From Kineococcus rhizosphaerae (GTDB taxonomy: Bacteria; Actinomycetota; Actinomycetes; Actinomycetales; Kineococcaceae): a stretch of DNA of 64,000 bases. Below, piece by piece: positions 56,118 to 64,000 of the stretch. How positions within the stretch are numbered: the first letter of the stretch is position 1; the number at the start of each line of letters is the position of its first letter. Where the stretch lies: NCBI RefSeq assembly GCF_003002055.1, contig NZ_PVZF01000013.1:62001-126000 (forward strand), in the 5' to 3' direction. A program made the translations under genes and the position numbers. The notes under the pieces are model-generated. The model did not search any database. It was given only the letters and a program-made list of their open reading frames with translations, and was not told the origin of the DNA.

Positions 56118-57449
56118 TCACCCCGGGCTGGCCCACTCCGGTTCGCGCGCTCCGACGGCGGTGGCTCGCGGCCGCCGCCGCAGGCCCTCCTCGCGGGCGG
56201 CCTCCTCGACCGCGTCGCTGAAGTGCCGGCGGTACAGCGGGACCGCGGCGGCCGTCGTCACGACCGCCACGACGACGAGCATCGAGAACGCGGGACGGCT
56301 CAGGACGCCGAGGTCGAGCCCGGCGTTGATGAAGATCAGGATCATGAGCCCGCGCGCGTTCATGATCGCCCCCATGGCGAAGGCCTCGCCGTGCGACCAG
56401 CGGAACCAGCGGCGCAGCACGACGTAGCCGGCGGCGGACTTCGTGACGGCCGCGACGAGCACGAGGGCCACGAGCGGCAGCAGGTAGGACGGCGAGGCCA
56501 GGGTCCGCAGGTCGGTGTTCAGGCCGGAGAACGCGAAGAACAGCGGCAGCATCAGCGTGCGCACCAGCCCGAGCGCCGAACCGTGCAGCAGGGGGGCGAA
56601 CCCGGGGACGCGCGGCAGCGCGACCCCCACCAGGAACCCGCCGAACACCGAGTAGATCCCGATCGCGTCCGCGGCCCAGCCGACCACGAGGGTCGTGGCG
56701 AGCAGGGCGGCCAGCAGGCCCTCGTCGAGGTGCCCGCGGTGGACCGCCGCCTCGAGGCGGGAGCGGAAGACGCGCGGCACGACCACCAGGACGGCGACGG
56801 CCAGGGCGAGGGCGGGCAGGACGACCGTCGTCACCGCGCCCAGGGCGCTGCCCCGGGTCACCAGGGACGTCACGACCGCCAGCAGGCACCAGGCGAGGGC
56901 GTCGTCGACGGCGGCCGCCGTCGTCGCCGTCCGGCCGAACCGGGTGTGGACCATGCGCCGCTCCTGCAGGACCCGGGCCAGCATCGGGAACGCCGTGATG
57001 GACAGCGCACCCCCGAGGAACACCGCGTACACCCACGGGGCGACGCCGGCGGGCCGTTCACCGGCGAGCAGCAGACCGCCGCCGAGGCCGCCGAGCACCG
57101 CGGGGCCCACCACCCCCGTCACGGCCAGCGCGACGGGGGCCCACCGGTCCCGGCCCCGTCCGGTCTCGATCTCGTGGTCGGCGCCCACGAGGAACATGTA
57201 CAGGCACAGGCCGAGCATCGCCACGGTGTAGAGGACCGGCCGGGTGCGGTCGGTGAACAGGTAGCCCGTGAACCCGGGGGCGAGCGAACCCAGCAGGGTG
57301 GGGCCGAGCAGGATCCCGGAGACCATCTCCCCGACGACGGCGGGTTGCCCCACCTTCTCCGCGAGGGCCCCGCACACCCTCGCCAGGACCACGATCACCG
57401 CGACGGCCGCCGTGACGTGCAGCAGGACCTCGAAGTTCGGCGTGTTCAC
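56118..57449 (-). CDS. CPA2-type cation:proton antiporter
   Basis: 443 aa, about 12 membrane helices: VGQPAVVGEMVSGILLGPTLLG (first core helix), ALSITAFPMLARVLQERRM and TTAAAVDDALAWCLLAVVTSLV (the conserved Asp pair is expected here), and AFAMGAIMNARGLMILIFIN. It should exchange K+ or Na+ for protons. Its GTG 57449 lies 10 bases after the halogenase stop on the same strand, so it may be the last gene of the biosynthetic transcript. Confidence 0.88.
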   Translation of the reverse strand: MNTPNFEVLLHVTAAVAVIVVLARVCGALAEKVGQPAVVGEMVSGILLGPTLLGSLAPGFTGYLFTDRTRPVLYTVAMLGLCLYMFLVGADHEIETGRGRDRWAPVALAVTGVVGPAVLGGLGGGLLLAGERPAGVAPWVYAVFLGGALSITAFPMLARVLQERRMVHTRFGRTATTAAAVDDALAWCLLAVVTSLVTRGSALGAVTTVVLPALALAVAVLVVVPRVFRSRLEAAVHRGHLDEGLLAALLATTLVVGWAADAIGIYSVFGGFLVGVALPRVPGFAPLLHGSALGLVRTLMLPLFFAFSGLNTDLRTLASPSYLLPLVALVLVAAVTKSAAGYVVLRRWFRWSHGEAFAMGAIMNARGLMILIFINAGLDLGVLSRPAFSMLVVVAVVTTAAAVPLYRRHFSDAVEEAAREEGLRRRPRATAVGAREPEWASPG

Positions 57450-57459
57450 GAGGTCCGCC

Positions 57460-58788
57460 TCAGACCGACATCGCCGCGGCGAACGTGGACCCGACCCGGT
57501 CGCCGAGCGGGTCGAAACCCACGATGTCGGGCAGCGCCGTGATCCCCGAGATGAGCGAGACGAAACCCACCTGCGAGTTCTCGGCGAACACCCGCGTGGC
57601 GGCCTGCGCCTTCTCCAGGTAGTCCTCGCGGTGGCGGCGCGGGTCGGAGAAGTACCGCACGTAGGCGAGCATGTCGCCGACGAACTGCCGGTACACCCGC
57701 TCGAAGTGGCCGAGGGCGGCCGGGGCGGCGTCGGGGTCGGTCAGGCACGCGTCCAGCGCGCGCGCCGCGAGCCAGGACCCCGACGAACCCAGCCACACCC
57801 CCGAGGAGAACAGCGGGTCGACGAACGCGACGGCGTCGCCGACCCCCACCCACCCCGGTCCGGAGAACCGCCGGGCCGTGAGGGAGAAGTCGCGCACGGT
57901 CCGCTGACCCGGGACCGGCGTCCCGGGCTCGACCATCGTGCGGGCGACCCGGCTGGCGGCGAGCGCGGCGTCGAACAGGTCCTCGGCGCTGCGGCCGGCG
58001 GCGGTGGCCTCGGCGACCGCGGCCGCGGAGGTCACGTACCCGACGCTCAGGCGGTTCGCGGACACGGGGATCCCCCACAGCCAGCCCCCGACCTCCGGGA
58101 CGGCCTCGACGAGGATGTCGCCGGAGTCCTCCAGCGGCCGGAAGTCGTCGACGTAGCGCCAGATCGCGATGTTGCGCAGGTCGTCGTGCCAGTCGACGTC
58201 GGTGAGGTGGCGGCTCGCGACGCGGGCGTGGCCGGAGGCGTCGACGGTCCACCGCGCCCGCACCTCGCGCCGCCGCCCGTCCTGCTCGAACTCCACGCCC
58301 CCGACGCGGCCGTCGGGTCCGGTGCGCACCGACGTCACCTTCGCGCGTTCCAGGACGCGGACCCCGTGGGCGCGCGCGTTGTCCAGCAGCAGCTCGTCGA
58401 AGCTCGCGCGGTCCACGTGCCAGGAGTGGTCGAACGGGCTGGCGTCGTTGAACGCCGTGCGCCAGGGTTCGGGTTCGGAACCCCACACGAGGGTGACGCC
58501 GTACTTCCACGGGTACCGCGCGTCCATCTCGGCCTCGAGCCCGAGTTCGCGGATCAGCGGCACGATCCCGGAGATCAGCGACTCGCCCACGTGGTACCGC
58601 GGGAACTGCTCGCGTTCGAGCAGGACGACGTCCCGGCCGCGCTGGGCCAGCAGGGTCGCGACGGTGCTGCCGGCGGGTCCGCCGCCGACCACGACGACGT
58701 CGGCGTCCAGGTCGGCGTCCAGGTCGGCGTCCAGGTCGGCGTCCGGGGCTGCGTGCAGGTCGGTGGGGTCCTGGTGCGTGGTGTCCAC
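57460..58788 (-). CDS. Flavin-dependent halogenase-like enzyme
   Basis: 442 aa. FAD fold DVVVVGGGPAGSTVATLLAQRG. The halogenase signature WxWxIP is present as GGWLWGIPVS, and the active-site lysine of FAD halogenases fits WKYGVTLVWG (after YHVGESLISG). DAVAFVDPLFSSGVWL closes the FAD site. It would chlorinate or brominate an aromatic or other activated group. The N-terminus is a DADL repeat (12-bp tandem DNA repeat at 58699-58744). GTG 58788 has GGAAGGA 8 nt upstream. It is followed by the antiporter gene after 10 bases and preceded by the HopA1 gene. Confidence 0.85.
   Translation of the reverse strand: MDTTHQDPTDLHAAPDADLDADLDADLDADVVVVGGGPAGSTVATLLAQRGRDVVLLEREQFPRYHVGESLISGIVPLIRELGLEAEMDARYPWKYGVTLVWGSEPEPWRTAFNDASPFDHSWHVDRASFDELLLDNARAHGVRVLERAKVTSVRTGPDGRVGGVEFEQDGRRREVRARWTVDASGHARVASRHLTDVDWHDDLRNIAIWRYVDDFRPLEDSGDILVEAVPEVGGWLWGIPVSANRLSVGYVTSAAAVAEATAAGRSAEDLFDAALAASRVARTMVEPGTPVPGQRTVRDFSLTARRFSGPGWVGVGDAVAFVDPLFSSGVWLGSSGSWLAARALDACLTDPDAAPAALGHFERVYRQFVGDMLAYVRYFSDPRRHREDYLEKAQAATRVFAENSQVGFVSLISGITALPDIVGFDPLGDRVGSTFAAAMSV
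58699..58744. repeat. 12-bp tandem repeat in the halogenase gene
   Basis: GTCGGCGTCCAG repeated about 3.8 times, coding for DADL units near residues 16-30 of the halogenase. Confidence 0.9.
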
Positions 58789-58847
58789 GGTCGGTCCTTC
58801 CGTTCCGGGGGTTCGTGGGGTCAGCGGGGTCAGGGGGGTCGGGCGGG

Positions 58848-59813
58848 TCACTGCAGGCCCAGCACGGGCAGCGCCGGCGAGGCGAGGTTGCGGGCGGGTT
58901 CCAGCGGATCGACGTCCGCGTCGACGCACGCCTGGGCGAGCAGGCCCGCCAGGTCGGCGTCGGCGCCCTCCAGCGCGTGCGCGACGACGGCCTCGGCCAC
59001 GACGTTCGCGCGGTGCTGGCCGAAGCTGGACCCGGCGTGCGCCGGACGGCGGTCGGTCGGCTCGAACGCGCAGCCGACCGACGGGGTCAGGGCGCGGGTG
59101 AACGGGGACGTGCTCCCGCCCAGCAGCCCCGTCGCCTCGAGCTCGTGGGCCAGGGGCGCCGCGACGGGCCACCCGTCGCGGCACAGGTACACGACGAGGG
59201 CGTCGCAGCGCGGGTAGAGCGACGGGGTGGACAGGACCTTCGCGTGCCAGCCGATCTCCGGCACGGTGAGGAACCGCACGGCCCGCCGCCACACCTCCGG
59301 TGCCGCCTGCGGGTCGGCGACGTGCGCGTAGAGCCGCAGGACCGGGCCGCGCAACCGGCCGGCCCGGGGGCCGTGGGCGTACAGGAAACCCGGGGACAGC
59401 GCGGGCCGCAGACCGGGCAGGTCGACGCGCACCGACCCCTCGCGCGGTTCGCTGTTCGGGACCCGCACCCGCACCCCGTCGAGGTCGACGACGACGTCCG
59501 TCGCGCCCGGGGCGGCCGGGGCGACGACGTCCGCGCGGACGCTGCGCACCAGCGGTGGGGTGGCGGCCACCAGGGTCTGCTCGAACCGGGGGTCGCGGAA
59601 GCTGCGCAGGGCGAACTCGAGGGGTTTGTCCCGCCCGTTGTGGACGGTCTGGTAGAGGACGCCGCCGACGGTCCGGGCCAGGGCCACGGGACTGCCCTCG
59701 ACGTAGCGGGTCCCGGCGACCGTGGCCGCCAGACCCCCGGGTTCCACGTCGACACCGCGGGCGGCGTCCAGCAGGCGGGGGCTGACCAGCCGGTCGGCGA
59801 GGGTGCGGGTCAC
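58848..59813 (-). CDS. HopA1-domain RiPP protein (LanY/TvaD-like)
   Basis: 321 aa. C-terminal HopA1-family pattern: GPVLRLYAHVADPQAAPEVW, WHAKVLSTPSLYPRCDALVVYLCRDGWP, SPFTRALTPSVGCAFEPTD and GSSFGQHRANVVAEAVV. In class V lanthipeptides (SprH3, CaoY) and thioamitides (TvaD) such proteins pair with a phosphotransferase to eliminate phosphate from Ser/Thr of the precursor. GTG 59813 overlaps the phosphotransferase stop by four bases, so the two are translated together. Confidence 0.85.
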   Translation of the reverse strand: MTRTLADRLVSPRLLDAARGVDVEPGGLAATVAGTRYVEGSPVALARTVGGVLYQTVHNGRDKPLEFALRSFRDPRFEQTLVAATPPLVRSVRADVVAPAAPGATDVVVDLDGVRVRVPNSEPREGSVRVDLPGLRPALSPGFLYAHGPRAGRLRGPVLRLYAHVADPQAAPEVWRRAVRFLTVPEIGWHAKVLSTPSLYPRCDALVVYLCRDGWPVAAPLAHELEATGLLGGSTSPFTRALTPSVGCAFEPTDRRPAHAGSSFGQHRANVVAEAVVAHALEGADADLAGLLAQACVDADVDPLEPARNLASPALPVLGLQ

Positions 59814-60910
59814 GGGGTCACGTCCAGTCCGAGGGTCGAGGTGAACTCGGCGGGGGAGATCAGCAGCCCCCGGCCGATGCCGGCCGCGGCGCGGGTCACC
59901 GGCGAGAGGCGGTTGGCCTTCGCGGCGGCCGCCAGCATCCGGTCGAGCATGTGCCAGCCCGCGAAGGCCGTGGCGCGTTCGAGCAGGCCCGCGTCCTCCA
60001 GCGCCCGCGGGCGGACGTCGAGGTACCCCCGGCAGAACGCGGCGACCCGGGGCCGGCGGGCCGCGACCTCCCGGGTCCCCGTCGCGACGACCTGCGCGTG
60101 GTCGGCGGCGCGGCCCAGCGGCAGGTCGCCGGCCAGGGTCACGGGGATCGCGGCCGCGGCCAGGAACAACCACTCCCCGGCGAACGCGCCCAGGTCGCGG
60201 GCCGGGTCGCCCGCCCGCGTCTCCTCGAAGTCGGACAGGTGCAACCGGTCCCCGCTGAGCAGGAACTGGTCCAGGCGCAGGTCCCCGTGGACCGGGGTCC
60301 GGCCGGGCCCGGCGGGTTCGCGGGACCGCAGCGCGTGCAACGCGGTGACGAGCTCGGCGTCGCGCTGCAGCAGCCCCCACATCTGCAGCTCGGCCTGCGA
60401 GGCGACCGTCCAGTGCGCCAGGGACAGCGCCTCCAGCCCCTGCACGGGCGGCAACGGGTGCGGGGAGTCGTCGAAACCCCCCACGGGCAGCGAGTGCAGG
60501 ACGGCGACGAGGGCGCCGGCCTCCCGGCACCGCTCGTCCGTCATCTCCTCGTCGAGCGCCAGTTCCGCGCCGGTGCGCGCGTCGGGCAGGAACTCGAACG
60601 CCGCCAGCGCCTCGGCCGGGTCGGCGCCCAGCAGCCGCGGGGTCCGCAGACCGGACCCGGCGTGCCGTTCGACGTGCAGGCTGCGTTCGAGCCGGCGGTC
60701 CCGGTCGGCGTCGAGCAGGCGCTTGACGAAGACCCGACGGCCCCGGTCGGTGCGTCCGGACCAGTTGTCGTTGCGGCCCAGGACGCTCGTGACGGAGTCC
60801 TCCTCGAACCCGCCGAGGCCCAGGCCCCGCAGCAGCCGGTCGACGGCCGGGACGGTCTCGAGCTCGGTCGACCGGTACTGGACCCGCGGGCTGGTGCTGG
60901 TCGGTGGCAT
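59810..60910 (-). CDS. RiPP phosphotransferase (LanK/TvaC-like, APH fold)
   Basis: 366 aa. Kinase-like fold: GRRVFVKRLLDADR (ATP-binding Lys), the catalytic loop VHGDLRLDQFLLSGD and the metal-binding LSDFEETRAGDPARDL. Aminoglycoside phosphotransferase family members with this partner phosphorylate Ser/Thr in RiPP precursors (SprPT, CaoK, TvaC). ATG 60910 has AAGGAG 6 nt upstream. It is the first gene of the leftward transcript and is coupled to the HopA1 gene. Confidence 0.87.
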   Translation of the reverse strand: MPPTSTSPRVQYRSTELETVPAVDRLLRGLGLGGFEEDSVTSVLGRNDNWSGRTDRGRRVFVKRLLDADRDRRLERSLHVERHAGSGLRTPRLLGADPAEALAAFEFLPDARTGAELALDEEMTDERCREAGALVAVLHSLPVGGFDDSPHPLPPVQGLEALSLAHWTVASQAELQMWGLLQRDAELVTALHALRSREPAGPGRTPVHGDLRLDQFLLSGDRLHLSDFEETRAGDPARDLGAFAGEWLFLAAAAIPVTLAGDLPLGRAADHAQVVATGTREVAARRPRVAAFCRGYLDVRPRALEDAGLLERATAFAGWHMLDRMLAAAAKANRLSPVTRAAAGIGRGLLISPAEFTSTLGLDVTP

Positions 60911-61055
60911 GACGCTCCTTCGGTCGTTCCTCGGTGACGGCTCCGAGCGTGCTGCGCGGTCCTCGTGGGTGCGTCCACCCCGGCTCGAGCGGGACCGGCG
61001 AACCTCGGTCGCACCGCGGGAGGTCCCCGCGGTGCGGACAGGAAGGAGCCGGGCG
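60911..61055. promoter_or_regulatory. Divergent promoter of the RiPP locus
   Basis: 145 bases. Contains a perfect 10-bp hairpin (61011-61020 with 61026-61035) just upstream of the ABC ribosome site, which could be an operator or attenuator. No peptide gene is visible on either strand. Confidence 0.5.
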
Positions 61056-63203
61056 ATGGGACGGATCACCCCGGAACTGCAGGTGACCCCGCTGGAGGCG
61101 GGTCTGTGCTGCGCGGCCATGCTGTTGCACGCGGCCGGGTGCAGGGTCCCCACGTCGGCGCTGCGGGAGGAGGTCGACCTCGGTCGTTCGGGGTCGACGC
61201 TGCCGCAGCTCGCGGAACTCTTCTCGGTCCGCGGCGTCGTCGCGGAGGTCCGCCAGGTGAGCACGGCCGAGGCCCAGGGGCTCCCGGGTCCGTTCATCGC
61301 CGGCTGGGGGAACTCCTCCTACGTCGTCGTCGAACGGTTCCGGGGGTCGACCGTCGTGCTCGTCGACCCCGCCAGCGGCCGCCGCCGCGCACCGGTGGAG
61401 GAGTTCGGCGTCCAGTTCTCCGGGATGGTCCTCCTCCCGCGGCCGGCACCGGACGTGCGGTTCGCCGAACCGGAGCGCGACCCGGGGGCCCCGCGGCCGT
61501 TCCGCGCGGCGCTGCGGGCCGCCGCCGCACCCCTGGCGGGGGTGCTCCTGACGTCGGTCCTGGTGTACGCCACGGACATCGGCGCCCCGTACCTCACGCA
61601 GCGCGTCATCGACCAGGCCCTCGTGGACGGCCGGCTCGACATCGTCGGCGACACCCTGCCGTGGATCCTCGGGATCGTCGCCGCCGTCGGGCTCGGCATC
61701 CACCTGCGGTCCGTGTTCACCTCGCGCAGCGCCGTCGTCATCGGCGGCCGCAGCGCGCAGCAGGTGCTCGACCACCTCCTGGGCCTGCCCTACAAGTACT
61801 TCGACGCCCGCCAGCCCGGTGAGCTCGCCTACCGGCTCGCGGGCATCAGCGCGATCCGCGACTCCCTCTCGGACCAGTTGTTCGCGGGGTTCTTCCAGAT
61901 CGGCGGGCTGCTGGTCTACCTGGGGTACCTGTTCACCCGCAGCGTCCCGCTGGCGCTCGTCGCGACGGGTTTCGTGGCGGCGATGCTCCTCGTGCTGTTC
62001 GGGTCCCGGGCGGTGTTCTACAGCGCCATCCAGAACGAGCAGTCGCAGACGGGCCGGATGCTCACCGAGCAGCTCGAGGCGATCCAGTCGATCCTCACCA
62101 TCAAGACCCAGCCGGACCGCCACCAGTTCCTCACCCGCTGGCGGCGGCAGAACGCCGTCTCCCTGAGGTACCTGCGGCGCAGGATGCTGCTGCAGGGCGG
62201 GGTGAACGCCGTCACGGGCGTCCTGCAGTTCAGCGGCCCGATCGTCACCCTCGTCGTCGGCCTGGTGCTGTGGCAGCGGGGCGACATGTCGCTGGGGACC
62301 GTCTTCGGGGCGCTGGCCATCGCGTCGATGATCTTCGCCACGGCCAACGCGATCTACGGTTCCGTGGCCCTGTTCCTGGTGTGCCGCACGTACGCCCGGC
62401 GCATCGAGGACATCACGACGACCCGCTCCCAGCCCGTCGGGACGCGCTCGGTGCGACGGCTCGGCCGGCTGGGCCTGCACGGGGTCGGGTACCGCTACAC
62501 GCGGCACACCCCGCCGGTGGTCCAGGACGTGGACCTGACCGTCGAGCCGGGGACCACCGTCGCCCTCGTGGGCCGCACGGGGTCGGGCAAGAGCACGCTG
62601 GCCAAGCTCGCCCTCGGGCTGTACCCGAGCACGACCGGCTCGGTGACGTTCGACGGCGTGCCGGTCGGGGACGTCGTCCCCGGTGACCTGTTCGCGCGGC
62701 TGGCGTTCGTCCCGCAGGACGTGACCCTGGAGACCGCGACGCTGCACGACAACGTGGCGCTGGGCCGTGACGTCACGCGCGCCGACGTGGAGGAGGCGTG
62801 CCGCGTCGCGTGCGTCCACGAGGACGTCCTGCGCTTCCCCGCGGGCTACGAGACGATGGTCAACAACCTGGGGGCGAACCTGTCCGGCGGGCAGCGGCAG
62901 CGGATCGCGCTGGCCCGGGCGGTCCTGGCCCGTCCGGAGTTCCTCGTCCTGGACGAGGCGACGAGCTCCCTCGACGCCGCCACCGAGCAGACCGTCGCCC
63001 GCAACCTGGCCGCGCTCGGCTGCACGACCCTCGTCATCGCCCACCGGCTCGCGTCGGTGGCCGGCGCCGACGTCGTGCACGTGCTCGACGGCGGCCGCGT
63101 GGTCCAGTCCGGCCGGCCCGACGACCTCCTGCTCGTCGACGGCCCGTTCCGCGACCTGTTCGCCCCCCGCCCGCCCGTGCGCGAGACGGTGGTGGCCTCG
63201 TGA
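61056..63203 (+). CDS. ABC exporter with degenerate C39-like domain
   Basis: 715 aa. Residues 1-130 have the C39 peptidase fold: LQVTPLEAGLCCAAMLLHAAG keeps the Gln (Q9) but has Ala15 where the catalytic Cys is normally found (ECG), and GWGNSSYVVVERF has Ser88 where the catalytic His should be; the Asp of VDPASG (D104) remains. Six membrane helices follow (about 155-430), then the ATPase with Walker A GRTGSGKSTLAKLALG, signature LSGGQRQRIALARA and Walker B EFLVLDEATSSLD. As in HlyB, the domain may bind cargo without cutting it. ATG 61056 has GGAAGGAG upstream. Confidence 0.88.
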   Translation: MGRITPELQVTPLEAGLCCAAMLLHAAGCRVPTSALREEVDLGRSGSTLPQLAELFSVRGVVAEVRQVSTAEAQGLPGPFIAGWGNSSYVVVERFRGSTVVLVDPASGRRRAPVEEFGVQFSGMVLLPRPAPDVRFAEPERDPGAPRPFRAALRAAAAPLAGVLLTSVLVYATDIGAPYLTQRVIDQALVDGRLDIVGDTLPWILGIVAAVGLGIHLRSVFTSRSAVVIGGRSAQQVLDHLLGLPYKYFDARQPGELAYRLAGISAIRDSLSDQLFAGFFQIGGLLVYLGYLFTRSVPLALVATGFVAAMLLVLFGSRAVFYSAIQNEQSQTGRMLTEQLEAIQSILTIKTQPDRHQFLTRWRRQNAVSLRYLRRRMLLQGGVNAVTGVLQFSGPIVTLVVGLVLWQRGDMSLGTVFGALAIASMIFATANAIYGSVALFLVCRTYARRIEDITTTRSQPVGTRSVRRLGRLGLHGVGYRYTRHTPPVVQDVDLTVEPGTTVALVGRTGSGKSTLAKLALGLYPSTTGSVTFDGVPVGDVVPGDLFARLAFVPQDVTLETATLHDNVALGRDVTRADVEEACRVACVHEDVLRFPAGYETMVNNLGANLSGGQRQRIALARAVLARPEFLVLDEATSSLDAATEQTVARNLAALGCTTLVIAHRLASVAGADVVHVLDGGRVVQSGRPDDLLLVDGPFRDLFAPRPPVRETVVAS

Positions 63204-63262
63204 GGGGCGGGCTCGAGCGGTCCTGGACCGGGACCCCACCACCCCCGCCCAGCATCGGGGGC

Positions 63263-64000
63263 ATGCTCGAGATCCGAGGTCTGACACGACGGTTCGGTGA
63301 CCGCACGGCCGTCGACGACATCGCCATGACGGTGCCCTCCGGTGAGCTGGTGGGTTTCGTCGGCGGCAACGGGGCGGGGAAGTCCACGACCATGCGGATG
63401 GTCATGGGCGTCCTGGAGCCCGACGCCGGGCAGATCCGCTGGAACGGGGCGCCGGTCACGCCGGCCGACCGCCGCCGGTTCGGGTACATGCCCGAGGAGC
63501 GCGGCCTGTACCCCAAGCAGCCGGTGCTGGCCCAGCTCGTCTACCTGGGCCGGCTGCAGGGTCTGGACGCCGGCCGCGCCCGCCGGTCCGCGCAGGAGCT
63601 GCTCGAACGCTTCGACCTCGCCGCCCGCGGCGGCGACAAGCTGGAGTCGCTGTCGCTGGGCAACCAGCAACGCGTCCAGATCGCGGCGGCCGTCATCGCC
63701 GACCCGCGGCTGCTGGTCCTCGACGAGCCGTTCTCGGGTCTGGACCCGACGGCCGTGGACAGCATGGCCGAGCTGCTGCAGGACCACGCCGCCCGCGGGG
63801 CAGGGGTCCTGTTCTCCTCCCACCAGCTCGACCTGGTCGAGCGGTTGTGCGACCGGCTCGTCGTCCTGCACGCGGGTCGCGTCGTCGCCGCCGGGACGGT
63901 CGAGGAGCTGCGCACGTCCGCGGGCGTGCGGCACCGGCTGCGCACCGGCTCGGACGCCTCGTGGGTCCGGGGCCTGGGCTGGTTGCAGGTCGACGACGTC
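63263..64000 (+). CDS. ABC transporter ATPase, 3' end outside window
   Basis: At least 246 residues, open at the right edge. Walker A VGGNGAGKSTTMRM, Q-loop FGYMPEERGLYPKQP, signature LSLGNQQRVQIAAAV and Walker B LLVLDEPFSGLDP. Its pattern is that of drug-export or self-resistance ATPases that work with an ABC-2 permease, expected next. ATG 63263. It starts 60 bases after the exporter gene on the same strand and may give immunity to the product. Confidence 0.88.
   Translation, partial: MLEIRGLTRRFGDRTAVDDIAMTVPSGELVGFVGGNGAGKSTTMRMVMGVLEPDAGQIRWNGAPVTPADRRRFGYMPEERGLYPKQPVLAQLVYLGRLQGLDAGRARRSAQELLERFDLAARGGDKLESLSLGNQQRVQIAAAVIADPRLLVLDEPFSGLDPTAVDSMAELLQDHAARGAGVLFSSHQLDLVERLCDRLVVLHAGRVVAAGTVEELRTSAGVRHRLRTGSDASWVRGLGWLQVDDV

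Follow-up and report, generated by a model that had tools for sequence, protein, structure and literature searches.

A halogenase-type enzyme in a probable two-block class Va lanthipeptide cluster of Kineococcus rhizosphaerae

What does a flavin-dependent halogenase-like enzyme do when its gene stands in one run with those of a lanthipeptide kinase and lyase? The question is raised by a 64,000-nucleotide stretch of Kineococcus rhizosphaerae DNA (the window; positions 62001-126000 of contig C13, in a 5.6-Mb genome), near the end of which a preliminary description had placed a class V-like locus for a ribosomally synthesised and post-translationally modified peptide (RiPP). That assignment stands, and can be refined to class Va proper in a locus that reaches about 83 kb in two blocks, the contig having been examined to 150000 (coordinates past 64000 continue those of the window; contig C13 position is window position plus 62000). 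We consider it probable that this is a class Va lanthipeptide cluster split into two blocks, that it yields two peptides, and that the halogenase-type enzyme modifies the peptide.

The first block is a compact run on the minus strand. It opens with the class V Ser/Thr kinase LanK (59810-60910), which scores 430 bits against NF038156 (LxmK), over the curated cut-off of 315, followed by LanY, a HopA1-type phosphoSer/Thr lyase (58848-59813; PF17914, 2.7e-35). Both are real open reading frames (ORFs) and overlap by 4 bp (GTGA), in agreement with the translational coupling proposed in the preliminary description. The start of the halogenase-like enzyme, here called H (57460-58851; PF04820, 1.5e-41), lies within a second 4-bp GTGA overlap, with the stop of the HopA1 ORF, and a CPA2-type Na+/H+ or K+/H+ antiporter (56118-57449; PF00999, 1.9e-47) starts 10 bases past the halogenase stop and is the last gene of the run. 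The single solved match of the kinase is LxmK (288 bits) and that of the HopA1 protein is LxmY (119 bits), both from entries 9dk1-9dk3, the last of which is titled as the lexapeptide dehydratase complex; together with the profile scores this places the pair among RiPP-associated enzymes, as had been proposed. LanY residues R160, K192, R202 and Y209 have the spacing of the catalytic residues mapped in CaoY (R187, K219, R229 and Y236; PMC9486802, accessible text), CaoY being compared by its published positions, and the same residues are aligned in LxmY. The pattern K-x9-R-x6-Y recurs in 93 of 95 LanYs (from 94 related loci and the window), with an Arg at K-32 in 92 of these 93, and the two LanYs without it are both in loci cut by contig ends. 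LanK and HopA1 each have one match genome-wide, and must therefore serve both of the precursors found.

These precursors are not in the window, where none was recognised, but within 20 kb of its end, inside the limit at which the preliminary description would have taken a missing precursor as refutation. LanA1 (82501-82665, plus strand) and LanA2 (82783-82950, plus strand), 18.5 kb beyond the window end, carry LxmA leaders scoring 38.5 and 32.5 bits against NF038146 (cut-off 25), and a genome-wide search for this leader, up to E = 1, returned these two only. Both leaders have Tyr-17, Tyr-20, Leu-24, Glu-12 and Phe-11, with type-A leader positions taken from the accessible text of PMC9486802, and APA at -3 to -1; with the cut assumed after APA, the cores are TPSSPACVGISIASVALSADTVTSHC for LanA1 and TPIVVTVTLATAGAVSGASISETVQHGC for LanA2. 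LanA1 has one internal Cys and LanA2 none, so that in LanA2 no lanthionine is possible besides the aminovinyl-methylcysteine (AviMeCys) ring. Paired precursors have a precedent in a class V cluster described in PMC11162475 (accessible text).

The precursors close a second block at 73.2-83.0 kb, which also holds regulators and, on the minus strand, LanX (73196-74155), the cysteine decarboxylase LanD (74148-74798; PF02441 over cut-off, the CypD model at 96 bits below its cut-off of 215), LanJ (74800-75768), an M16 partner without the active domain (75765-77087; PF05193 only) and an M16 peptidase with HLFEH (77084-78355; PF00675 and PF05193). LanX was recognised by its profile match to an alignment of nine LanX relatives (probability 100), and a model of the family, built on the protein of locus L090 (pLDDT 89), has TvaE as its nearest fold (TM 0.68-0.70), followed by phosphotransferases and LxmK. 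RosX, itself a LanX, is reported to perform AviMeCys ring closure (PMC12291118, accessible text). No match to PF05147, the LanC-like cyclase family, was found anywhere in the genome. The locus thus combines the features of class Va, i.e. a stand-alone LanK, a LanY with CaoY-type residues, LanD, a kinase-fold LanX, LxmA-type precursors and no LanC.

Genes, families, catalytic residues, conservation and phylogeny were observed here, and the individual chemical steps are assigned by analogy with enzymes characterised for cacaoidin, lexapeptide and rosin. PMC9486802 and PMC12291118 supply the models for phosphorylation and elimination, for decarboxylation and for closure of the AviMeCys ring. LanK would phosphorylate Ser and Thr of the two LxmA-type precursors and LanY would eliminate the phosphates; LanD would oxidatively decarboxylate the C-terminal Cys and LanX would join it to the Ser/Thr at -5, so that the peptide ends in an Avi(Me)Cys ring. 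Reduction of certain dehydro residues to D-amino acids is predicted for LanJ, and cutting of the leader after AP(A) is probably the task of the M16 pair. H, translationally coupled to LanK-LanY, would modify the peptide further, with a halogen as the most likely addition, the ABC (ATP-binding cassette) proteins would export the products, and the antiporter may serve self-protection.

The preliminary description had recognised in H a halogenase-like enzyme with WxWxIP and the expected lysine, joined to the kinase/HopA1 pair, and this is borne out by WLWGIP and K116, with FVDPLFSSG in addition. We take the lysine, WxWxIP and FxxPxxSxG to be marks of flavin-dependent halogenases. The closest solved relatives of H are 8zop, titled as FasV (284 bits, or 388 with a profile), CndH (3e1t, 201 bits) and CmlS (3i3l, 181 bits). 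Entry 5uao, presumably MibH, gives a partial match of 54 bits, so MibH is not its closest kin. By sequence H groups with CndH, CmlS and FasV at a distance from MibH, and its occurrence in clusters of two lanthipeptide classes (below) makes it a portable tailoring enzyme. An N-terminal extension of about 45 residues with a DADL repeat (at about 58696-58746) is absent from the class V relatives in the alignment.

Is the association of H with the lanthipeptide genes more than chance? The proteins of the cluster were searched for in 95 other LanK loci (15 plus the best 80 of 189). LanY was found in 94 of them, LanD in 82, LanX in 75, LanJ in 72 and an active-type M16 in 70; seven loci, all from the set of 80, have the halogenase (L068, L069, L070, L071, L073, L078 and L090). 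In six of the 95 the sequence stops within 2.4 kb after LanK, so that a halogenase could not show, and in 72 it extends for 8.9 kb or more in both directions. The halogenase directly follows LanY in all seven, and across K the order is a contiguous X-D-J-M16-M16-K-Y-H. A homolog of the antiporter is present in six of the seven, compared with none of the 88 others (flanks of about 10 kb searched), some of its scores being weak (40-152 bits) and its position in L069 being on the other side. In a tree of 91 kinases, five of the 95 being duplicates, the window and the seven halogenase-bearing loci form one clade (100/98), the distribution needs one change, and 0 of 500 shuffles came as low. These seven loci have nearly the same gene set as the window, so the earlier impression that no described cluster has this exact set is to be qualified accordingly. 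The enzymes of these class V loci are 48-55% identical to H, and K116, WxWxIP and FxxPxxSxG are invariant in all eight.

A search that started from H gave a consistent view. Genome scores fell on either side of a sharp gap (over 700 bits, against 430 or less), with those over 700 bits in 2/394 genomes of the class sample and 7/382 of the genus sample of genome G538, eight distinct genomes in all. In each of the eight the enzyme lies within a lanthipeptide cluster, of class V in five (the window itself, and the contigs that carry L070, L071, L073 and L090) and of class II in three: G538 (contig C31, loci L184, L190 and L191), with a LanM over cut-off, G1016 (L203), whose LanM is 85% identical to that of G538, and G1030 (L202), with a LanM dehydratase domain. 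The halogenase marks are present in all three class II orthologs. Paired precursors of plantaricin C type and LchA2 type accompany the enzyme in G538 and G1030, the alpha peptides of both containing Trp, and none was seen within 20 kb in L203; LanJ lies within 20 kb in two of the three class II clusters. In the halogenase tree (39 rows) all eleven enzymes, eight of class V and three of class II, fall into a single clade (100/100), within which those of class II are themselves a clade nested among class V enzymes, with L068, L070 and L071 (100/100). This nesting suggests a single passage of the halogenase from class V to class II. The position of the halogenase after LanY in a supported kinase clade, and its presence in a lanthipeptide cluster in 8/8 genomes, indicate that it is not a chance neighbour.

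The cluster itself has likely been transferred into this lineage, as LanK is present in one of 11 genomes of the genus and the LxmK family exceeds its cut-off in 4/396 genomes of the order, that of the window included (237 match at all, mostly weakly and below cut-off; at most five candidates were scored per genome in the class-level LanK search).

The precursors of the halogenase-bearing loci share a distinctive core. Fourteen precursors parsed from six of the eight class V loci all have a C-terminal Cys, a Ser/Thr at -5 and a Ser/Thr as first core residue; nine contain W, Y or F, and another core Cys occurs in one, LanA1 of the window. Two more, from L201 on the contig of L070, have the C-terminal Cys, Ser/Thr at -5, Ser as first residue, aromatics and no other core Cys, which brings the C-terminal Cys and Ser/Thr at -5 to 16/16, and the lack of another core Cys to 15/16, in seven of the eight loci; in L069 no precursor was found. 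The 65 unique cores from loci without the halogenase (55 of 88 loci, after 25 duplicate cores and three unparsable precursors, all from such loci, had been dropped) include 59 with a C-terminal Cys, 60 with an internal Cys, 63 with W, Y or F, 62 with Ser/Thr at -5 and 38 that begin with Ser/Thr. As the halogenase-bearing loci are one clade, these core counts are not independent. The alpha precursor of the window keeps the lanthionine-type Cys that is gone from the other halogenase-bearing class V precursors seen, and may represent an intermediate stage. Cores that have lost the internal Cys are not confined to halogenase loci, since five of the 65 from loci without the gene also lack it. Such internal-Cys-free class V precursors occur in the halogenase-free loci L107, L095, L080, L057 and L123, the last from the sister branches.

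Each of the six other class V loci with visible precursors has at least two, as the window has two. Grouped by eye, an alpha type comprises LanA1 of the window (GISIASVALS) with peptides of L073 (GISIASVALS) and L090 (GITIASIGLS), and a beta type LanA2 (SGASISETVQHGC) with a peptide of L073 (GASISLTVQNGC); the SSPAC of LanA1 corresponds to SSPEC in L072, a locus from a sister branch. Five of the seven loci with visible precursors have a peptide that contains Trp, as part of an SW at a shared position, and the window and L078 have none.

Several observations weigh against a class Va cluster with a peptide-halogenating H. The window cores are without Trp, Tyr and Phe and offer no obvious halogenation target, the residual candidate sites being His, enamide or dehydro positions and a cap derived from the N-terminal Thr. 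None of the curated NCBIfam models listed reaches its cut-off with H (the CmlS model gives 209 bits, cut-off 900), and H has non-halogenating oxidative relatives, a dehydrogenase (3nix, 126 bits) and the model for the hydroxylase QhpG (151 bits, below cut-off). LanX has no Pfam, NCBIfam or PDB sequence match of its own, and a gap of 7.4 kb lies between the two blocks, whose relative orientation differs from that in the relatives.

With such cores in view, H could be a peptide Trp halogenase that is idle or re-purposed in the window, a reading we regard as possible if doubtful. The Trp-bearing SW peptides of the five class V loci and the Trp of the G538 and G1030 class II alpha peptides would provide its substrate, and the known lanthipeptide halogenases MibH (PMC12615548) and MppI (PMC11791876) act on Trp according to the accessible parts of these sources. 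Against this, H is far from MibH, and the window and L078, which have no Trp precursors, split off before all the others in the halogenase tree (L078 deepest, the window second, 93/79; the window is deepest in the kinase tree), yet both keep the catalytic residues. Trp as a universal target of the halogenase is contradicted by these two loci.

That H is instead a peptide hydroxylase or dehydrogenase and does not halogenate at all seems unlikely to us. A fold search with an AlphaFold model of H, of moderate quality (mean pLDDT 74.6) and used for this search only, showed the fold to be common to hydroxylases and reductases, and QhpG, LodB and GoxB are among its weaker profile matches, being flavoenzymes of protein or peptide maturation. 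However, the lysine, WxWxIP and FxxPxxSxG are kept throughout the class V and class II enzymes, and the best solved matches are halogenases.

If H does halogenate, its target could be a non-aromatic, electron-rich carbon created by dehydration, either a dehydro residue or the alpha-keto cap to which a dehydrated N-terminal Ser/Thr gives rise once the leader is gone, in an activity passed from class V to class II; this more specific proposal is speculative and, as it stands, rather improbable. Bearing on the alpha-keto cap is the first core residue, Ser/Thr in 16/16 halogenase-bearing class V precursors compared with 38/65 unique cores from loci without the gene. We know of no RiPP halogenase described as acting on such a carbon. 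The AviMeCys ring was also considered as a universal target and is weakened as a candidate, since the surroundings of the class II orthologs (50 kb in G538, 20 kb in G1016 and G1030) yielded no LanD.

It is improbable that H serves a separate small molecule and merely travels with the lanthipeptide genes. CndH and CmlS, among its closest solved relatives, do act on small or carrier-bound substrates, but the K-Y-H-antiporter run has no further gene recognisable as one for a small-molecule enzyme, the gene of H is coupled to that of LanY, and the halogenase clade is present in two unrelated lanthipeptide classes.

We give very little credence to the K-Y-H and X-D-J-A blocks being independent loci that lie close by chance: the intervening 7.4 kb does hold genes without evident role (for a FIST protein, a GGDEF-EAL protein, an extracytoplasmic function (ECF) sigma factor, a hydrolase and a DUF6924 protein), but a single LanK, a single HopA1 protein and a pair of LxmA leaders were all that the whole genome yielded, and the blocks are contiguous in seven relatives. 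The thioamitide alternative, which the preliminary description had left beside class V for the kinase/HopA1 pair, is rejected, for although thioamitides have homologous enzymes (PMC9486802, accessible text) and TvaE is the nearest match of the LanX family model, the leaders are LxmA-type and, as the preliminary description had noted, the cluster has no YcaO, the only one found in the genome being on contig C7 (G000:C7:22278-23348, locus L153).

A class Va cluster in two blocks whose halogenase-type enzyme acts on the peptide thus remains the reading we prefer, and it would add a conserved tailoring step of halogenase type to the youngest lanthipeptide class. As one enzyme clade serves clusters with either K-Y-X or LanM, two unrelated kinds of synthetase, it has the look of a module for peptide modification that is complete in itself. 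As several presumed substrates, those of the window included, have no aromatic residue, identifying the target would show whether flavin halogenases act on non-aromatic peptide positions.

The remaining genes of the region fit around the two blocks. The antiporter and divergent ABC exporter of the preliminary description are both present, and the exporter (61056-63203, plus strand; PF00664 and PF00005) has in addition an N-terminal C39-like domain that had gone unmentioned (61056-61490; PF03412, 6.5e-20). In one pairwise alignment with 6mpz this domain keeps the Cys and has a Ser aligned to the catalytic His, so by this alignment it lacks the Cys/His pair of an active C39 peptidase, and leader removal by the exporter was set aside in view of this Ser and of the M16 pair; a homolog of the domain occurs in one of the 95 LanK loci (L124, without a halogenase). 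Downstream on the plus strand are an ABC transporter ATPase crossing the window end at 64000 (63263-64144; PF00005, 2.9e-29 on 63263-63997), with homologs in all seven halogenase-bearing LanK loci and in 72 of the 88 others, and an ABC-2 permease (64141-65397; PF12698). The regulators of the second block are a Streptomyces antibiotic regulatory protein (SARP) family member (78532-79449, minus strand; PF03704), a sensor kinase (80606-81649, plus strand) and a response regulator (81659-82300, plus strand; PF00072 and PF00196). Between the SARP regulator and the sensor kinase lies a UbiA-family prenyltransferase-like protein (79317-80486, plus strand; PF01040), of which no homolog was found among the 95 LanK loci. 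Directly after LanX comes a small, transposase-like helix-turn-helix protein (72826-73131, minus strand; PF13518, 27.4 bits, cut-off 25), with homologs in all seven halogenase-bearing loci and six of the 88 others, the best match being located elsewhere in L073 and L078. Two further small ORFs were noted. One, of 70 residues behind LanA2 (83079-83291), has a purine-rich stretch ahead of its start, a Thr-rich end and no family match; the other, of 63 residues between the ABC permease and the FIST gene (65421-65612), looks secreted and has a Trp/Pro/Cys-rich end, and was set aside as a precursor, having no family match and no homolog in the 95 LanK loci. PADLOC gave no match for the kinase, the HopA1 protein or the halogenase.

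How does the locus compare with known systems? FasV (8zop), CndH (3e1t) and CmlS (3i3l), the closest solved relatives of H, are not known as lanthipeptide enzymes. The lexapeptide LxmKY proteins (9dk1-9dk3) are matched by LanK and LanY, with the catalytic Lys, Arg and Tyr aligned and the same LxmA leader family; to our knowledge the lexapeptide cluster has no halogenase. CaoK/CaoY of cacaoidin (PMC9486802) share the lyase residue spacing and the type-A leader positions, and cacaoidin, by the accessible account, adds methylation and glycosylation, for which no matching genes were recognised in the window cluster. The class Va rosin (ros) cluster of Microbispora rosea ATCC 12950, chosen among clusters without N-methyltransferase genes according to the accessible text of PMC12291118, is equated by strain number with our locus L089; its enzymes are 46% (K), 42% (Y), 29% (X), 44% (D), 47% (J) and 40% (M16) identical to those of the window and both have LxmA leaders, but no halogenase or antiporter was found in the 21 kb searched there and its precursors keep the internal Cys. 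A literature search, with the supplementary tables of PMC12291118 outside its scope, found no paper linking a halogenase to a class V cluster, and halogenase-bearing class V clusters may be among the 851 class Va clusters that the accessible part of that paper mentions. The class II clusters of G538, G1016 and G1030 share the halogenase clade but have LanM in place of K-Y-X. A flavin halogenase in a lanthipeptide cluster is itself established by MibH of NAI-107 and MppI of brominated lanthipeptides, both Trp-specific by the accessible accounts (PMC12615548, PMC11791876), MibH being another halogenase branch than H. Halogenases were already known in other lanthipeptide classes and, to the extent of the literature found, the link to class V is the new part.

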